Position numbers and translations under genes: made by a program. A DNA stretch of 37,092 nt from a virus: IMG/VR virus record IMGVR_UViG_3300011116_000692, positions 1 through 37,092 of that record. One strand, written 5' to 3'. Positions 1-37,092 of the stretch are shown here, piece by piece. Numbering within the stretch: position 1 is the first letter of the stretch; every line of letters starts with the position of its first letter. Under the pieces are notes generated by a model, which had not been told where the DNA came from, did not search any database, and saw only the letters and a list, made by a program, of their open reading frames with translations.

Positions 1-171
1 GCTGCGGGTACGGCAGCGGCTACGGCTACGGCTACGGCAGCGGCAACGGAGACGGCTACGGCTACGGCGACGGCGGCGGCAACGGAGACGGCGACGACGG
101 CTACGGCGACGGCTACGGCTACGGCTACGGCTACGGCTACGGCAGCGGCTACGGCAGCGGCTACGGCAACG
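1..171. repeat. Degenerate GGCTAC hexanucleotide tandem repeat, left half
   Basis: Tandem 6-bp units GGC-TAC, GGC-AGC, GGC-AAC and GGC-GAC fill this interval and continue from the right end of the window (36980-37092). Because the unit is two codons, gain or loss of units keeps the reading frame. The contig ends inside this array, as assemblers often do in repeats, so the true copy number is uncertain. Confidence 0.9.
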
Positions 172-233
172 GCTCTGTCAGCAATTCGCTGGGGCTTATT
201 GGCGGCAAAATCGTGTGGGGAGAGGGCGCATGA
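3..233 (+). CDS. Gly-Tyr repeat protein, C-terminal part (continues from 36954 across the circular junction)
   Basis: The frame beginning at base 3 is open to the TGA at 231-233 and encodes 76 residues: strict Gly-X alternation (X = Tyr, Ser, Asn or Asp), one irregular patch rich in Gly and Asp (about 87-112), and a non-repetitive tail of about 20 residues ending in VWGEGA. Nearly all X codons are NAC or AGC and nearly all Gly codons GGC, so the DNA is a degenerate hexanucleotide repeat. Base 37092 plus bases 1-2 make a GGC codon, which joins this piece in frame to the start at 36954 for a protein of about 123 residues. The stop overlaps the next start (ATGA at 230-233). No family recognised; low-complexity and probably disordered. 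Function unknown. Confidence 0.8.
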   Translation, partial: CGYGSGYGYGYGSGNGDGYGYGDGGGNGDGDDGYGDGYGYGYGYGYGSGYGSGYGNGSVSNSLGLIGGKIVWGEGA

Positions 234-439
234 GCAACGAATGGTTTGAACTGGCTTGGATCAATTTTACAAAGGCGATCCTGCACGGACGCTATGTCAA
301 TGATAGCGGAACCTCAATCGAGATTGAGCAAGTCCTAACCGTCGAGCAGCGCGAGCAAGTCTATGCGCTGAATGAGGCGCATGATGCCAAATTGCACGAG
401 CTGCTGCGTTCATTTGTGGAGGACACCACCCATGACTAA
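230..439 (+). CDS. Hypothetical protein, 69 aa
   Basis: I chose the ATG at 230 because it overlaps the TGA of the Gly-Tyr protein (ATGA) and has a purine-rich GGGGAGAG stretch just upstream; an in-frame ATG at 215 has no comparable context. The product starts MSNEWFELAW and contains a probable helix with the motif VEQREQVYALNEAHDAKLHE (about residues 38-57). It is acidic with no signal peptide or membrane segment. It is translationally coupled on both sides within a run of small early genes. No family recognised; function unknown. Confidence 0.75.
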   Translation: MSNEWFELAWINFTKAILHGRYVNDSGTSIEIEQVLTVEQREQVYALNEAHDAKLHELLRSFVEDTTHD

Positions 440-26607: not shown

Positions 26608-26970
26608 TTAAGCCAAAAACTTGAGCTTATACAACGTGGAGTAGTACAGCCCGAAAATCTCGTCGATAATGTTCTGGAGCGGTGTACACTCCTTATCGAC
26701 GACCTTATAGCGCATTTTCTCAAGGTCTTCTAGCTGGCCTTCGAGAAACTCTACGACGTTGTTCGTTTTCTTAGCCGACATCAGCGAAATCGGGCCGATC
26801 AGGCCGTACTTGCCCTGATAGGCTTCCGCAAACTTGTCTGCCAAGTCGATGATGCCGTCGTAGAACCCGTTTAGGGCGACGTGCTTGGCGTAGCTACGCG
26901 TGTTGAGGTGCGCGGAATGGGCGACATCCCGCGCCAGAAACATCATTCCGACAAAATCCGCGCACTTCAT
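26608..26970 (-). CDS. All-helical protein, possibly DUF5856/Dps-like, 120 aa
   Basis: The pattern RDVAHSAHLNTRSYAKHVAL (about 14-33) followed by NGFYDGIIDLADKFAEAYQG resembles ferritin-like/Dps four-helix proteins; I recall phage members named DUF5856. H18/H21, H30, D38 and D42 sit where a diiron or Dps site might be, but the full ligand set is not certain. Only 120 residues, shorter than Dps. It is tucked between the portal and the 92-aa structural gene, so it may be a virion part or protect DNA. Start overlaps the portal stop (26970). Confidence 0.6.
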   Translation of the reverse strand: MKCADFVGMMFLARDVAHSAHLNTRSYAKHVALNGFYDGIIDLADKFAEAYQGKYGLIGPISLMSAKKTNNVVEFLEGQLEDLEKMRYKVVDKECTPLQNIIDEIFGLYYSTLYKLKFLA

Positions 26971-29246
26971 TACATCATCCCTTCTGGCGTCATATCAGGT
27001 TCTTCTGGCGGCGTCTGAGCGCCCATGTCCGGCATTTCAACGCCTTCTGGCGCCGTCATACCGCCCATTTCGGGCATTTCAGGCGCTTCGTTCGGCTCTT
27101 CCATTTCCGGCATTTCGCGCATCTCTGGTGCGCCGCCGATCAGGTCGCCAGTGTCGAGCGCGGCCGCGATGGTGCCCATGACGATGTCTTGGATTTGTTC
27201 CGGCGTCATGGACTGCTGGACGGCCGAGATGCGCTTGGTCTCGGCGTTGTAGGCGTCGATTTCCGCCTTGTAGCGGTCGACTTCCATCTTCTGCTGCTCT
27301 GTGCTGTCCTGAATGTTCTCCATAATGTCGGAGACGCGGTTCAGTTCCTGCGTCAGGGCTTCGATCTGCTGCTGCGCCGCCATCATTTCCGGCGTCTGGT
27401 CGCCGTCCGACAGCACCTTCGGGTCCAAAATCTTCTTGAACCGTGCGGCCATCTCCTGCGCGCCCGGCCAATCCATGTTCTTGATGAACAGGTCGCCGGC
27501 CACCGCCCAAAGCTGGGGGTTGGACTGCAAAATCTGGCTCATGGCGTCGAGGGCTTCCTGACGCTTGGTCATATAGCCGGGCCCGGTGGTTACCATAACG
27601 TCGTAGGTGCCAACGCCGGGGTTGTAGACCTTTTCGATCAGCGCGCCCATCTGGTCGCGGATTTCCTTGACCGGTTCCTGCTGGTCAGGGTTGAACTTGA
27701 CCATGCCGACTTCGCCGTCCGCACCGATGATGCGGGCGATGCGCTGGGTGTCGTAAATCTTCGGGATCAGGTCGACGATCTGGCGCGTGATATGGCGGAT
27801 CGCGCGGGCGAGGTTATCCACATAGTGGTACGTGCCCGTGTCGCCCTGCTTTTCGCGCGCGATGATGGCCTTGGCCGACCGCTCATTGCCACCCTGCCCG
27901 ATTGACGCGTCGTACTGGCCGGTGGTGGCCTTGATGTCCTCGCCAGCGCCCATTTTGGCCTGAATAAGGCCCGTCTGGGGCAGCGGCGGCTGGGCGCGCT
28001 GCGGCAGCGGCAGGATGTTGCCGGCGCCGTCTGTAACGTCGGGGTTGACTTCCAGATACGGCCAGTTGGTCGTATTGGCAGTCTTCCACTGCATTTCGTA
28101 GCCTTCGAACTGGCCACCGTAGCCGATGAAGGGCGCCTTGGGGGCCAGCGCCAGCATTTCTGCCTCTTGGCTGGTCCAGTAGTTGTACATCCGCTGCGCG
28201 TCCTTGGCGTTGCGGACGAGGCCCGAAATGAAGATGCGGCCTTCGACTTCCCATTCGTTGCCGATCACGCGGACGACGGGTATCCACTTGCCCGGCCATT
28301 CGCGCTCTTCCAGCACGTCAAAGCCGTTGGTCTTCATCCACATGACCTTGGCGCGGTTTACCACGCGGCTGCGCAGCGGCTTGCCAAACAGCGCCATAAG
28401 CTGCTTGTCGCGCGGCGTGCGGGCGAACGCGGTCTGGTTGTCCGGGTAAAGGTGCAGCGTGGCCTTCTCGTACGACTTGTAGAAGTACTCCGCGATGCGG
28501 ATGGTGTCTTCCTGAAGCCATGCCGAGATGCCCTGATCGCCCACGCCTTGCGCGTAGAGCGTCGAAATGGGCGTAGCGTCCGGGAACAGGCGCTCGTACT
28601 CGTCCTTGAGGATGTCTTCGGTGATGAAGCACCATTCAGCGTCGGCGCCGCACGGGTCTTGGATCGTCGGGTCCATGTAGACCGAGAACGCGTTGCGCAC
28701 GCGGCCGATCTTGATGTCCTGATCGAAGGTTTCGTCGTTGCAGTACTCGGTCAGCAGGCGGATGTAGCCTTCGCCGTAGGTGACCTGATTGTCGCAAGCC
28801 GTGTCGTAGGCCACGTCGGCGTCGGACATATACTCGATATGCCGCACGACGCCGTTAAAGATTTCCGCGACCTGCACGTCGGCGTTGTCATCGGCGGGGA
28901 TGACCTTGCCGCTGGGGCGGTTCTGGCGCTGCTCGTTGGTGACCTGACGGACGTGCTGCGGCAGCTTGTTGATCGTCAGGCACGGACGGGCGTTGATCGT
29001 CTGGCCCTGCACGGCCCCGCGGGTTGCCAGCACGTCGGCTGGCCACTGCCACTGGTTATCAGGCGACCCGGCCATGAAGCGCAGGTCGTCCAGTTCGTCT
29101 TCACGGCTGTCCGAGTACGCCGCCTGCGCCATTTGCAGGCGGTGACGCATGGTCGCCATCTTGTCGTTGTCACCCGACGCGTCTGCGGGGTTCGAGCCGA
29201 CGTTGGCGACCTGTCCAGCCTTGTTGATACCAGTGGGGTCTGCCAT
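26970..29246 (-). CDS. Portal protein, P22-like, 758 aa
   Basis: P22-type portal: the segment SREDELDDLRFMAGSPDNQW, then ARPCLTINKLPQHVRQVTNE and QRQNRPSGKVIPADDNAD, is the family signature, and TYGEGYIRLLTEYCNDETFD follows. A C-terminal helical part (QQIEALTQELNRVSDIMENI, then QQKMEVDRYKAEIDAYNAET) corresponds to the barrel. The last 60 residues are an unusual Met/Glu/Pro-rich low-complexity tail (EMPEMEEPNEAPEMPEMGGM). Length near P22 gp1 (725). Forms the dodecameric DNA gate and binds gp4 and the terminase. Start overlaps the GroES stop (TGATG). Confidence 0.95.
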   Translation of the reverse strand: MADPTGINKAGQVANVGSNPADASGDNDKMATMRHRLQMAQAAYSDSREDELDDLRFMAGSPDNQWQWPADVLATRGAVQGQTINARPCLTINKLPQHVRQVTNEQRQNRPSGKVIPADDNADVQVAEIFNGVVRHIEYMSDADVAYDTACDNQVTYGEGYIRLLTEYCNDETFDQDIKIGRVRNAFSVYMDPTIQDPCGADAEWCFITEDILKDEYERLFPDATPISTLYAQGVGDQGISAWLQEDTIRIAEYFYKSYEKATLHLYPDNQTAFARTPRDKQLMALFGKPLRSRVVNRAKVMWMKTNGFDVLEEREWPGKWIPVVRVIGNEWEVEGRIFISGLVRNAKDAQRMYNYWTSQEAEMLALAPKAPFIGYGGQFEGYEMQWKTANTTNWPYLEVNPDVTDGAGNILPLPQRAQPPLPQTGLIQAKMGAGEDIKATTGQYDASIGQGGNERSAKAIIAREKQGDTGTYHYVDNLARAIRHITRQIVDLIPKIYDTQRIARIIGADGEVGMVKFNPDQQEPVKEIRDQMGALIEKVYNPGVGTYDVMVTTGPGYMTKRQEALDAMSQILQSNPQLWAVAGDLFIKNMDWPGAQEMAARFKKILDPKVLSDGDQTPEMMAAQQQIEALTQELNRVSDIMENIQDSTEQQKMEVDRYKAEIDAYNAETKRISAVQQSMTPEQIQDIVMGTIAAALDTGDLIGGAPEMREMPEMEEPNEAPEMPEMGGMTAPEGVEMPDMGAQTPPEEPDMTPEGMM

Positions 29247-32809: not shown

Positions 32810-32885
32810 CGCGAAACCCATTTGCTGGCGCGGCGCGCAGGAACATTTGGTTTCAATTGATACCAACCCGGCAGAAATTTATTAG

Positions 32886-32927
32886 TGCCATTATGGCAGC
32901 GATATTTTTATTGCTGCCATTTTGGCA
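32886..32927. promoter_or_regulatory. Two 13-bp palindromes, TGCCATTATGGCA and TGCCATTTTGGCA
   Basis: The first palindrome (32886-32898) is perfect; the second (32915-32927) has one mismatch. Centres are 29 bp apart, and a further ATAATGGC half-site follows at about 32931-32938. Between them GGCAGCGATA and TATTGCTGCC can form a stem. Typical spacing for paired operators. Confidence 0.55.
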
Positions 32928-33130
32928 ACGATAATGGCTAGACGGCCTGTTCTGGAACGGAAGTGGAACACAACCGGAACAAAATCGAACTCGGCCTTTG
33001 AGGGTATCAGAGTACCCAAAAGCGCTCGACGCGCTCTAAGGCCTCTTTCCGGGCAATTTTGAGGGTAGTGCAAAAATGCCACACTTTTTGTTGCGTAAGG
33101 CGTGGGGAGAGAGCGCCGGGAGAGAGGGCG

Positions 33131-36109: not shown

Positions 36110-36300
36110 TTAAACTTCGCAATTTTATCTGGACCGTGCGGTGCCGCCTGATCCGCTGGCTGGCTGGCAAAAATGGCGTTGCGATCAACGTAAACCTAGA
36201 CCCCCAAAGGGGTCTAGTCATGGATTTGGGTGCGCTGCATTATTACCGCAACGTCACGGTTCTCAACGGTTTTACATTTGAGGGGCAAACCAATGACTGA
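36106..36300 (+). CDS. Hypothetical protein, 64 aa
   Basis: I start at 36106 (MIKLRNFIWTVRCRLIRWLA), overlapping the previous stop. The N terminus is an amphipathic basic/aromatic helix that could lie on a membrane; the rest is beta-like (GVAINVNLDPQRGLVMDLGA). The gene contains a perfect DNA hairpin at 36196-36217. No family recognised. Confidence 0.7.
   Translation: MIKLRNFIWTVRCRLIRWLAGKNGVAINVNLDPQRGLVMDLGALHYYRNVTVLNGFTFEGQTND
36196..36217. repeat. Perfect inverted repeat inside a coding gene
   Basis: CTAGACCCC (36196-36204), loop CAAA, GGGGTCTAG (36209-36217): a flawless 9-bp stem within the 64-aa gene. Confidence 0.7.
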
Positions 36301-36652
36301 CATCGAACAGAGGGCACTGGCGCTGCTGAATGAGGTGCTGGCAGAGCGCCCGTTTGGGCCTAACGACAACTACATTTATGTAACCCTCTGCCGCGCCATC
36401 GAACAGCACGAAGCCTTCCGGCAGGAGGTGAGCGATGCGGTGGAAGGCACTTTGCGTAGCGTCTCTCATTGGCAGGGCTGCGATGTTGAAAAGTTTCGTG
36501 CCGCGCTGTCCCGCTTCATTATCTCCAAGCCCGATCTGCTGGTTGAGGTGCTGGATGAAATTGGCGTCTGGGATCCAGACCGCATCGACCGTTTTCGCGC
36601 AGCCATCGAGAAGCGCGGCGGCAAGATTATTTTCAACGAGGAGCAAAAATAA
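36293..36652 (+). CDS. Hypothetical protein, 119 aa
   Basis: Start at 36293 (MTDIEQRALALLNEVLAERP), overlapping the previous stop by 8 bp. The N-terminal helix followed by LCRAIEQHEAFRQEVSDAVE is a pattern I recall in small phage proteins that open with ALALLNEVxxER and have AIEQHEAFRQEVSDAV; function unknown. The C-terminal half is helical with SRFIISKPDLLVEVLDEIG. Stop overlaps the next start (TAATG). Confidence 0.8.
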   Translation: MTDIEQRALALLNEVLAERPFGPNDNYIYVTLCRAIEQHEAFRQEVSDAVEGTLRSVSHWQGCDVEKFRAALSRFIISKPDLLVEVLDEIGVWDPDRIDRFRAAIEKRGGKIIFNEEQK

Positions 36653-36954
36653 TGACTGACATCGTAACCATCAATGGCGTTGACTACGCGCCTATTGCTG
36701 ACCGCCCGACCGGCACCCGCGCAGTTGTCGTGGTGGATCGTGGCTGGATTTTCGCTGGCGACGTAACCCGTGAGAATGGCCGCATCCGCCTGTCCAATGC
36801 GCTGCACGTATTCAAGTGGGAGAGCATCGGGTTCGCGGGGATGATTGCCGACCCGAAGAAGGCCAAGGCAGACCTTCGCAAGATTGCTGACGTTGATATG
36901 CCAGCGGGTGCAGAGGTGTTCTGTGTTCCCGTAGCCGACAAGTGGGGGCTGTGA
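36652..36954 (+). CDS. Conserved hypothetical phage protein, 100 aa
   Basis: MTDIVTINGVDYAPIADRPT, then GTRAVVVVDRGWIFAGDVTR, a beta-barrel-like pattern (VDRGWIFAGDV) I recall in small phage proteins, followed by LHVFKWESIGFAGMIADPKK and a final PAGAEVFCVPVADKWGL. No known role. Stop TGA (36952-36954) overlaps the start of the Gly-Tyr gene as TGATG. Confidence 0.82.
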   Translation: MTDIVTINGVDYAPIADRPTGTRAVVVVDRGWIFAGDVTRENGRIRLSNALHVFKWESIGFAGMIADPKKAKADLRKIADVDMPAGAEVFCVPVADKWGL

Positions 36955-37092
36955 TGCCCCCAACCACATTTATGCCTGTCGGCTACGGCTACGGCTACGG
37001 CTACGGCGACGGCTACGGCTACGGCAGCGGCTACGGCAGCGGCTACGGCTACGGCTACGGCAGCGGCAACGGCGACGGCTACGGCGACGGCG
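36954..37092 (+). CDS. Gly-Tyr repeat protein, N-terminal part (continues at base 1)
   Basis: ATG at 36954, preceded by GTGGGGG and overlapping the previous stop. It encodes MPPTTFMPV followed by alternating Gly and Tyr/Asp/Ser/Asn up to the window end. The last complete codon ends at 37091; base 37092 with bases 1-2 gives GGC and the frame goes on to the stop at 231-233. Total about 123 residues, about half Gly. No signal peptide. Function unknown. Confidence 0.82.
   Translation, partial: MPPTTFMPVGYGYGYGYGDGYGYGSGYGSGYGYGYGSGNGDGYGDG
36980..37092. repeat. Degenerate GGCTAC hexanucleotide tandem repeat, right half
   Basis: Continuous units of GGC plus TAC/GAC/AGC/AAC up to the last base, matching the array at 1-171. 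The window is cut in the middle of the array. Confidence 0.9.

Follow-up and report, generated by a model that had tools for sequence, protein, structure and literature searches.

The hexanucleotide array that opens the virus record studied here (the window, 37,092 bases at its full length) is the 3′ part of a gene for a near-pure chain in which glycine alternates with a variable residue (Gly-X), and this gene forms a two-gene module with an overlapping partner gene directly upstream, whose product is predicted to be Sm-like. The overlap and the pairing recur in relatives, the Gly-X protein is conserved at the protein level, and the length of the array varies in 6-bp steps. As a tentative reading, to which we give somewhat less than an even chance, we propose that the module consists of an Sm-like protein and a separate, length-variable, disordered, Tyr-rich tail, and that the two build a ribonucleoprotein assembly.

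Tandem repeats in the window were located with TRF, which returned one period-6 segment at each end of the record (Table 1); the record start and the record end both lie inside one array. In frame 3, the array at 1–174 reads CGYGSGYGYGYG...GNGSVSNSLGLIGGKIVWGEGA-stop. When the end of the record is joined to its start, a single in-frame ORF runs from the ATG at 36954 to the stop at 231–233, with 123 residues, a figure that is the length of the joined record ends and from which the real repeat number may differ. The joined protein is MPPTTFMPVG-(Gly-X)n-GSVSNSLGLIGGKIVWGEGA, with the core pattern FMPVG-(Gly-X)n-GSVSNS, where X is Tyr, Asp, Asn, or Ser. Because the frame is preserved at the join and intact relatives hold both caps in one protein (in locus L006, MVPTTFMPVG...TVSNSLGLVG), we infer that the gene is closed across the record ends. 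The two termini of the record do not overlap exactly, and so circularity is not proven in that way. Several further contigs, like the window, end inside the array, which suggests that assemblies break there. The sequence-only reading had presented the array as a gene in its own right: the period-6 array is real and coding, but since the record starts and ends inside it, the reported feature is the 3′ part of the gene that begins at ATG 36954. The strict alternation that had also been claimed is broken in the window protein at GGCG, DGGGN, and GDDG. Across all six frames of the whole window, only the Gly-X gene contained uninterrupted stretches of at least four G-[YDNSHFC] units. The longest of them had 18 units, whereas none of 100 triplet shuffles gave more than 4.

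Table 1. Features of the window, and Gly-X genes miscalled in other records.
Feature	Position	Strand	Evidence or remark
Gene preceding the partner	36293–36652	+	Four close relatives have homologues adjoining the pair
Partner gene, 100-aa predicted Sm-like protein, wider DUF6948 superfamily	36652–36954	+	259 viral relatives; iterative HMM; AF2 model
TGATG stop/start overlap, partner/Gly-X	36952–36956	+	Sequence; seen in relatives
Gly-X gene, 5′ part: cap MPPTTFMPV, then (Gly-X)n, runs on at position 1	36954–37092	+	Frame kept across the join; cap F/M-x-P-V/I-G conserved
Hexanucleotide array, first segment	36980–37091 (listed to 37092)	+	TRF period 6, 18.7 copies, 84% match, score 154
Hexanucleotide array, second segment (feature of the sequence-only reading)	1–174	+	TRF period 6, 29.5 copies, 77% match, score 173
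Gly-X gene, 3′ part: remaining array, cap GSVSNSLGLIGGKIVWGEGA, stop 231–233	1–233	+	C-cap T-V-x-N-S conserved in relatives
Next gene 3′ of Gly-X	230–439	+	ATG 230–232 overlaps the Gly-X stop (ATGA)
Miscalled Gly-X gene, L085	2815–3105		
Miscalled Gly-X gene, L218	1786–2031		
Miscalled Gly-X gene, L224	1222–1794		
Miscalled Gly-X gene, L084	2788–3114		

The Gly-X gene of the window lies among small genes, outside the structural operon and on the opposite strand, and the gene order makes it plausible that it belongs to an early operon. Homologues of the gene that precedes the partner share 46–51% identity with it (L004, L006, L008, and L017), and no homologue of the gene that follows the Gly-X gene was found beside the pair in L004–L083. 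Two further repeats were observed in the window: a 42-bp unit present 1.9 times at 27002–27081, inside and near the 3′ end of a P22-like portal gene (26970–29246, − strand), and a 29-bp near-perfect direct repeat at 32878–32933, which is AT-rich against a genome of 61% GC and is possibly a regulatory or origin site.

An open frame alone is no proof of coding here, because none of the three forward frames of the GGCTAC unit contains a stop. Judged by comparisons among relatives, however, the Gly-X frame is the coding frame. The glycine codon is nearly homogeneous within one array and differs between arrays (mostly GGC; GGA in 18 of 19 units in L176; GGG in 42 of 43 units in L054), and the peptide stays Gly-X; the serine codons are AGC in the window and mostly TCC in other arrays. 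The same frame also holds the conserved end caps, F/M-x-P-V/I-G and T-V/I-x-x-S/T...R. The earlier proposal of a protein-coding Gly-X gene is thus borne out by codon, cap, and register comparisons. Among low-GC phages (e.g., L086, L092, and L098), some arrays at loci under 40% GC use GGC as the sole glycine codon, and array codons therefore do not track genome composition. The smallest Gly-X protein, downstream of position 3297 in L061, has 33 residues (8 units) and keeps both caps: MTPIMRPVGYGPGGGMGYGYGYGTVESSRRRRL.

Over 2558 units from 77 loci that were found by the partner alone, X was Tyr in 49.5%, Asp in 20%, Asn in 13.7%, Ser in 6.4%, and Phe in 2.6%. This Tyr-rich composition is unusual, because aromatic residues are strongly under-represented in the low-complexity regions of prokaryotes and phages (PMC6821194). 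The mean net charge was −7.2 for the array, +2.0 for the C-cap tail, and −0.6 for the partner; in the window, the net charge is 0 for the partner and −9 for the Gly-X protein. By these means, the charges of partner and array are not complementary.

The pairing of the two genes was examined in both directions. A scan of viral contigs with the partner protein of the window gave 259 relatives, of which 80 were kept. A Gly-X gene lay directly downstream of the partner in 77 of these 80 loci, that is, in all 77 that were testable; the other three contigs stop 53–67 bases past the partner. In the window, the start codon of the Gly-X gene and the stop codon of the partner overlap by one base in TGATG, and the same overlap was found in 57 of the 77 relatives, with a 4-base overlap in 10 more (67 of 77 with a stop/start overlap), so that translation of Gly-X is probably coupled to that of the partner. 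In the reverse scan, viral contigs were searched with a DNA pattern that encodes nine Gly-(Tyr/His/Asn/Asp) units and takes no account of neighbouring genes, which returned at least 120 loci. Among the matches listed, 90 short Gly-X ORFs had 350 or more bases before them, and after profile iteration a partner homologue was immediately upstream in 74 of these 90. Of the 88 superfamily matches in Gly-X contigs, again among the matches listed, 78 were followed by a Gly-X run no more than 500 nt away. Of the 16 Gly-X ORFs without a partner immediately upstream, several are acidic DG-type linkers (L091, L117, L136, and L200), which we set aside as unrelated sequences picked up by the DNA pattern, and two others, L111 and L124, still have a partner nearby, directly downstream in L124. 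In L111 (about 315–921, − strand), an ORF of roughly 200 aa that looks homing endonuclease-like by eye lies between the partner and the Gly-X gene. Gly-X arrays also occur in another setting: a DUF7666-like domain (PF24703) followed by a Gly-X array was seen in L124 (1659–2282, E = 3.9e-29) and, by eye, in L148 (3279–3836), in − strand coordinates.

Gly-X repeats at the same locus, which the sequence-only reading had proposed to look for in related phages, were also found in named phages. In 10 of the 10 phage records with DUF6948 that were examined, a Gly-X ORF adjoins the DUF6948 gene, downstream in nine and upstream in one; these are Pectobacterium phages Sabo and Koroua, Dickeya phage Setonix, Iodobacter phage PhiPLPE, Vibrio phage IKEMa6-1, Chlorobiaceae phage CV-1-33, two spring-water phages, and two gut contigs. 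More distant homologue pairs are gp37/gp38 of Eggerthella phage PMBT5, gp018/gp017 of Rheinheimera phage Barba1A (24.5% identity), and a pair in spring-water phage cthkR962. The hosts of phages with the module thus belong to three or more bacterial phyla and comprise Eggerthella, Rheinheimera, Pectobacterium, Dickeya, Iodobacter, Vibrio, and Chlorobiaceae. One locus, L107, is a natural fusion, with DUF6948 at residues 38–119 followed by about 43 Gly-X units, the sole fusion among the loci examined. Second copies of the partner, the pair, or the Gly-X gene within one contig were seen in L161, L205, L116, and L107. In the gut contigs L220 (1764–2297) and L222 (1656–2336), a short Gly-X patch precedes a globular domain (xYxIDGxxTII...FAHGETLxEA), and the L220 protein had no match in Pfam.

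In several phages, the neighbouring genes encode SSB, a helicase loader, RecE, RecT, Erf, or an exonuclease; these neighbours fit work on nucleic acids, yet they are typical of phage early regions. A scan of genome contigs returned four MAG contigs only, and the superfamily profile run over 398 Pseudomonadota genomes found the known MAG only, which suggests that the module is nearly restricted to free phages. The PF22253 profile matched 0 of 4 MAG genomes and 0 of 14 controls, a negative that carries no information. Public annotations misread the Gly-X gene, with wrong-frame MVMVMV or MAMALA proteins in cthkR962, CV-1-33, and ctRVW222 (for miscalled genes, see Table 1).

We also analyzed the length of the Gly-X gene in close relatives. 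Loci with more than 93% identical partner genes gave 52 pairs, which share members and are not independent; 40 of the pairs differ in length, 39 of them by an even number of residues. When the loci were grouped into clusters (our own grouping), 12 of 13 showed only even differences, with a chance probability of 0.0017. In metagenomic loci with identical partner genes, the arrays differ by 2 to 120 residues, the difference of 120 being that between L059 and L060, which may be two different genes. Rheinheimera phage isolates from one host strain carry a Gly-X gene of 210, 216, 240, or 252 bp between constant flanking genes. For the 54 isolates in the first paper, sequencing used paired reads of 125 bases, so these allele lengths appear to rest on short reads (PMC6715854). 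Neither the transcriptome paper nor the genome paper on the Barba phages (PMC9305737, PMC6715854) names the repeat gene in its main text. These results agree with the earlier suggestion that 6-bp steps alter the length without breaking the frame; length varies, and relatives keep the frame, contrary to the outcome that the sequence-only reading had named as its refutation. Phase variation was rejected as an explanation, because length changes in 6-bp units keep the gene on.

Searches of Pfam, PHROGs, and NCBIfam with the Gly-X and partner proteins of the window gave nothing significant. An iterative HMM joins several sequence flavours, including Pfam DUF6948 (PF22253), into one superfamily, which includes members that share about 10% identity. 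PF22253 itself matches within this superfamily (L129, 1.1e-30; L152, 1.5e-31; L102, 1.5e-23), but the partner of the window gave no match to it even at E ≤ 10, and the gathering cut-off of 27 bits was not reached. The window partner is a founding member of the iterative-HMM superfamily and has a Gly-X ORF immediately downstream; as it lies beyond the reach of PF22253, it is placed in the wider DUF6948 superfamily and not in DUF6948 itself.

The structure of the window partner was predicted with AlphaFold2 from 63 superfamily rows (mean pLDDT 89, pTM 0.74). With this model, the leading 50 PDB matches in Foldseek were Sm/LSm proteins, complexes with them, or constructs based on Sm-like proteins, with a best E of 1.1e-3 and a TM of about 0.5. 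VIA-align gave a Z of 8.1 for Lsm1 and 7.5 for the Sm-like protein 3by7 (rmsd 2.3 over 68 residues). A second AF2 model was made for the L107 fusion, which represents a distant branch with about 11% identity to the window partner. Its N-terminal helix and barrel were mostly above pLDDT 90, and its top PDB matches were again Sm/LSm proteins, with a Z of 8.3 that was still 7.3 at rank 50. Across the two models, the best Foldseek E values to Sm proteins were about 1e-3 and 1e-2, with TM about 0.5. A VIA Z near 8 and a TM near 0.5 are at the edge of meaning, in the range where a shared barrel may be coincidental. Because two distant models agree and their lists of Sm matches are nearly uniform, we have moderate confidence in the prediction that the partner has an Sm-like five-stranded barrel fold. 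By sequence, no Pfam LSM or Hfq match was obtained at the cut-offs used, and the superfamily profile had no sequence match among PDB chains. The Gly-X part of the L107 model was mostly below pLDDT 50 and had no secondary structure, in agreement with the disorder that had been suggested for the Gly-Tyr chain, although such a model is uninformative on fibre formation.

The module was compared with known systems. It is linked to DUF6948 by the iterative HMM and by canonical members (L129, L152, L102, and L107) that stand beside, or are fused to, Gly-X arrays; the window partner, however, has no match to the Pfam family, itself without a stated function. Sm proteins with low-complexity tails include SmD1 and SmB, with Gly-Arg tails, and LSm4. 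The module resembles Sm/LSm/Hfq proteins of this kind in its predicted barrel and its disordered, Gly-rich, dipeptide-like tail, fused in L107, and differs in that the tail is usually a separate protein, that X is Tyr, Asp, Asn, or Ser and not Arg or GFGGQ, and that the partner has no sequence match to the Sm family. The environmental Sm-like protein 3by7, which is presumably from a cyanophage (its PDB title gives an uncultured source only), shares the predicted fold class but is 10% identical to the window partner. With silk fibroin and prion-like Tyr-Gly domains, the arrays share the alternating, Tyr-rich, Gly-spaced pattern, with Gly at every second residue over the 2558 units; unlike these, they contain many Asp, Asn, and Ser residues, are acidic and variable in length, have a dedicated partner gene, and show no homology. 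Finally, phrog_18306, an unlabelled family of 242 positions, is matched weakly by the Gly-X array at 57–139 (E = 0.01) and by DUF6948 at about 151–234 (E = 1.5e-6 and 8.7e-8), which suggests that it contains both parts of the module; the order, however, is opposite to that of the usual gene pair, and the window proteins have no match to it. We found no family described with the Gly-X composition in Pfam, PHROGs, NCBIfam, or the literature, as the sequence-only reading had supposed. In the literature searched, mostly without subscription journals and preprints, DUF6948 was unnamed and nothing relevant on glycine-tyrosine phage proteins was found, and mention elsewhere is possible; as far as can be told, the Sm-like/Gly-X partnership has not been described.

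Sm-fold proteins commonly form nucleic-acid-binding rings, and some of them have Gly-rich disordered tails. Under the ribonucleoprotein reading, the first gene (36652–36954) would give the small predicted Sm/LSm-like barrel, and the second (36954 to 233 across the ends) would give, by coupled translation, the (Gly-X)n chain with its fixed short end caps. The Sm-like protein would form a ring or other oligomer and bind nucleic acid, most likely RNA, and this oligomer would recruit the Gly-X protein, which would serve in trans as its low-complexity tail. In this chain, the tyrosines would be weak stickers and the glycines spacers, with Asp, Asn, and Ser keeping the chain soluble and acidic, and the pair may build or tune a ribonucleoprotein assembly early in infection, to the presumed benefit of the phage. 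Unequal exchange or slippage in 6-bp steps would set the length of the tail with the frame kept. The pairing seen in both directions, the stop/start overlap, the L107 fusion, the conservation of the peptide, the even length steps, and the agreement of two fold models speak for this reading; the borderline structural scores, the negative sequence searches against Sm families and PDB chains, the finding of a single fusion, and the DUF7666 fusions of L124 and L148 speak against it. Direct binding of RNA by the array is unlikely, because the partner has no net charge and the Gly-X protein is strongly acidic in the window. Multivalent Tyr contacts are plausible, since the synthetic peptide GYGYGYG self-assembles, forming amyloid-like fibrils (PMC10510724), and a scaffold or condensate role of the Gly-X protein is possible. 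In Acinetobacter baumannii, Hfq has a disordered tail of GGFGGQ repeats, the number of which matters for regulation and fitness (PMC11617691). The more specific version, in which a split Sm-like ribonucleoprotein of phages in at least three phyla has its Gly-X length retuned by 6-bp steps and nucleates an RNA/DNA assembly in the infected cell, we consider doubtful.

The main rival explanation is that the Gly-X protein self-assembles, as a silk- or amyloid-like beta-sheet or a gel, and that the partner is a chaperone, cap, or neutraliser and not an RNA binder, so that the two would form a client/chaperone or toxin/antidote-like pair. Strict Gly-X alternation is the pattern of silk fibroin, a constant overlapping pairing would suit a chaperone made just before its client, and both caps, the hydrophobic one at the N-terminus and the basic one at the C-terminus, persist even in L061 with its 8 units. 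The fibrils of GYGYGYG (PMC10510724) also speak for it. However, the scattered Asp, Asn, and Ser residues and a mean charge of −7 disfavour tight sheets, the AF2 array has no beta structure, with pLDDT mostly below 50, and an Sm-like fold would be an unusual chaperone; we regard this explanation as unlikely, if well worth considering. The predicted Sm-like fold and the acidic array could also be read, by analogy, as a device against a ring protein of the host, such as Rho or Hfq, with the Gly-X chain mimicking or displacing nucleic acid. Rof, an Sm-like inhibitor of Rho (PMC11018626), would be a precedent, but hosts as different as Eggerthella, Chlorobiaceae, and Gammaproteobacteria would need to share one conserved target, and we judge this quite improbable.

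A virion adsorption or surface protein was suggested by the public label “adsorption protein” of PMBT5 gp38, which looks like a low-complexity match, and by the poly-Gly domains in the tail-fibre adhesins of T-even phages (PMC8409303). A surface filament had also been raised in the sequence-only reading. This role is very improbable: the Gly-X gene is coupled to a small, cytosolic-looking, predicted Sm-like partner, it stands among small genes and genes for replication and recombination (SSB, helicase loader, RecE, RecT, Erf, and exonuclease in several phages), and in the window it is on the strand opposite the structural operon. It is hardly credible that the array acts as DNA or RNA (a recombination site or an mRNA spacer), or slips idly, with an incidental peptide. 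The preference for GGC even in AT-rich phages and the fast changes in array length would agree with this, but arrays built from different DNA units (GGC, GGA, and GGG) all encode the Gly-X peptide, length changes preserve frame and register (39 of 40 differences even), the end caps are conserved, and the association spans superfamily members at about 10% identity.

If the Sm-like mechanism is true, the module is made of known kinds of parts in a split, length-variable arrangement that is undescribed as far as can be told; a wrong mechanism would leave the pair without any known analogue. The module explains a class of genes that is misframed by automatic annotation and broken by short-read assembly, and DUF6948 gains a testable role. 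Tyr-rich low-complexity proteins that may form condensates have mostly been studied in eukaryotes, and here unrelated phages maintain a gene of its own for a near-pure Tyr-Gly chain, beside that of a predicted Sm-like protein, with natural length variants in cultured isolates. If the split-ribonucleoprotein reading is true, it would be a prokaryotic-virus counterpart of the tailed Sm/LSm proteins, in which the number of stickers is an evolving dial, and if both proteins act together, the pair would be a minimal and genetically simple system that links sticker number to function.
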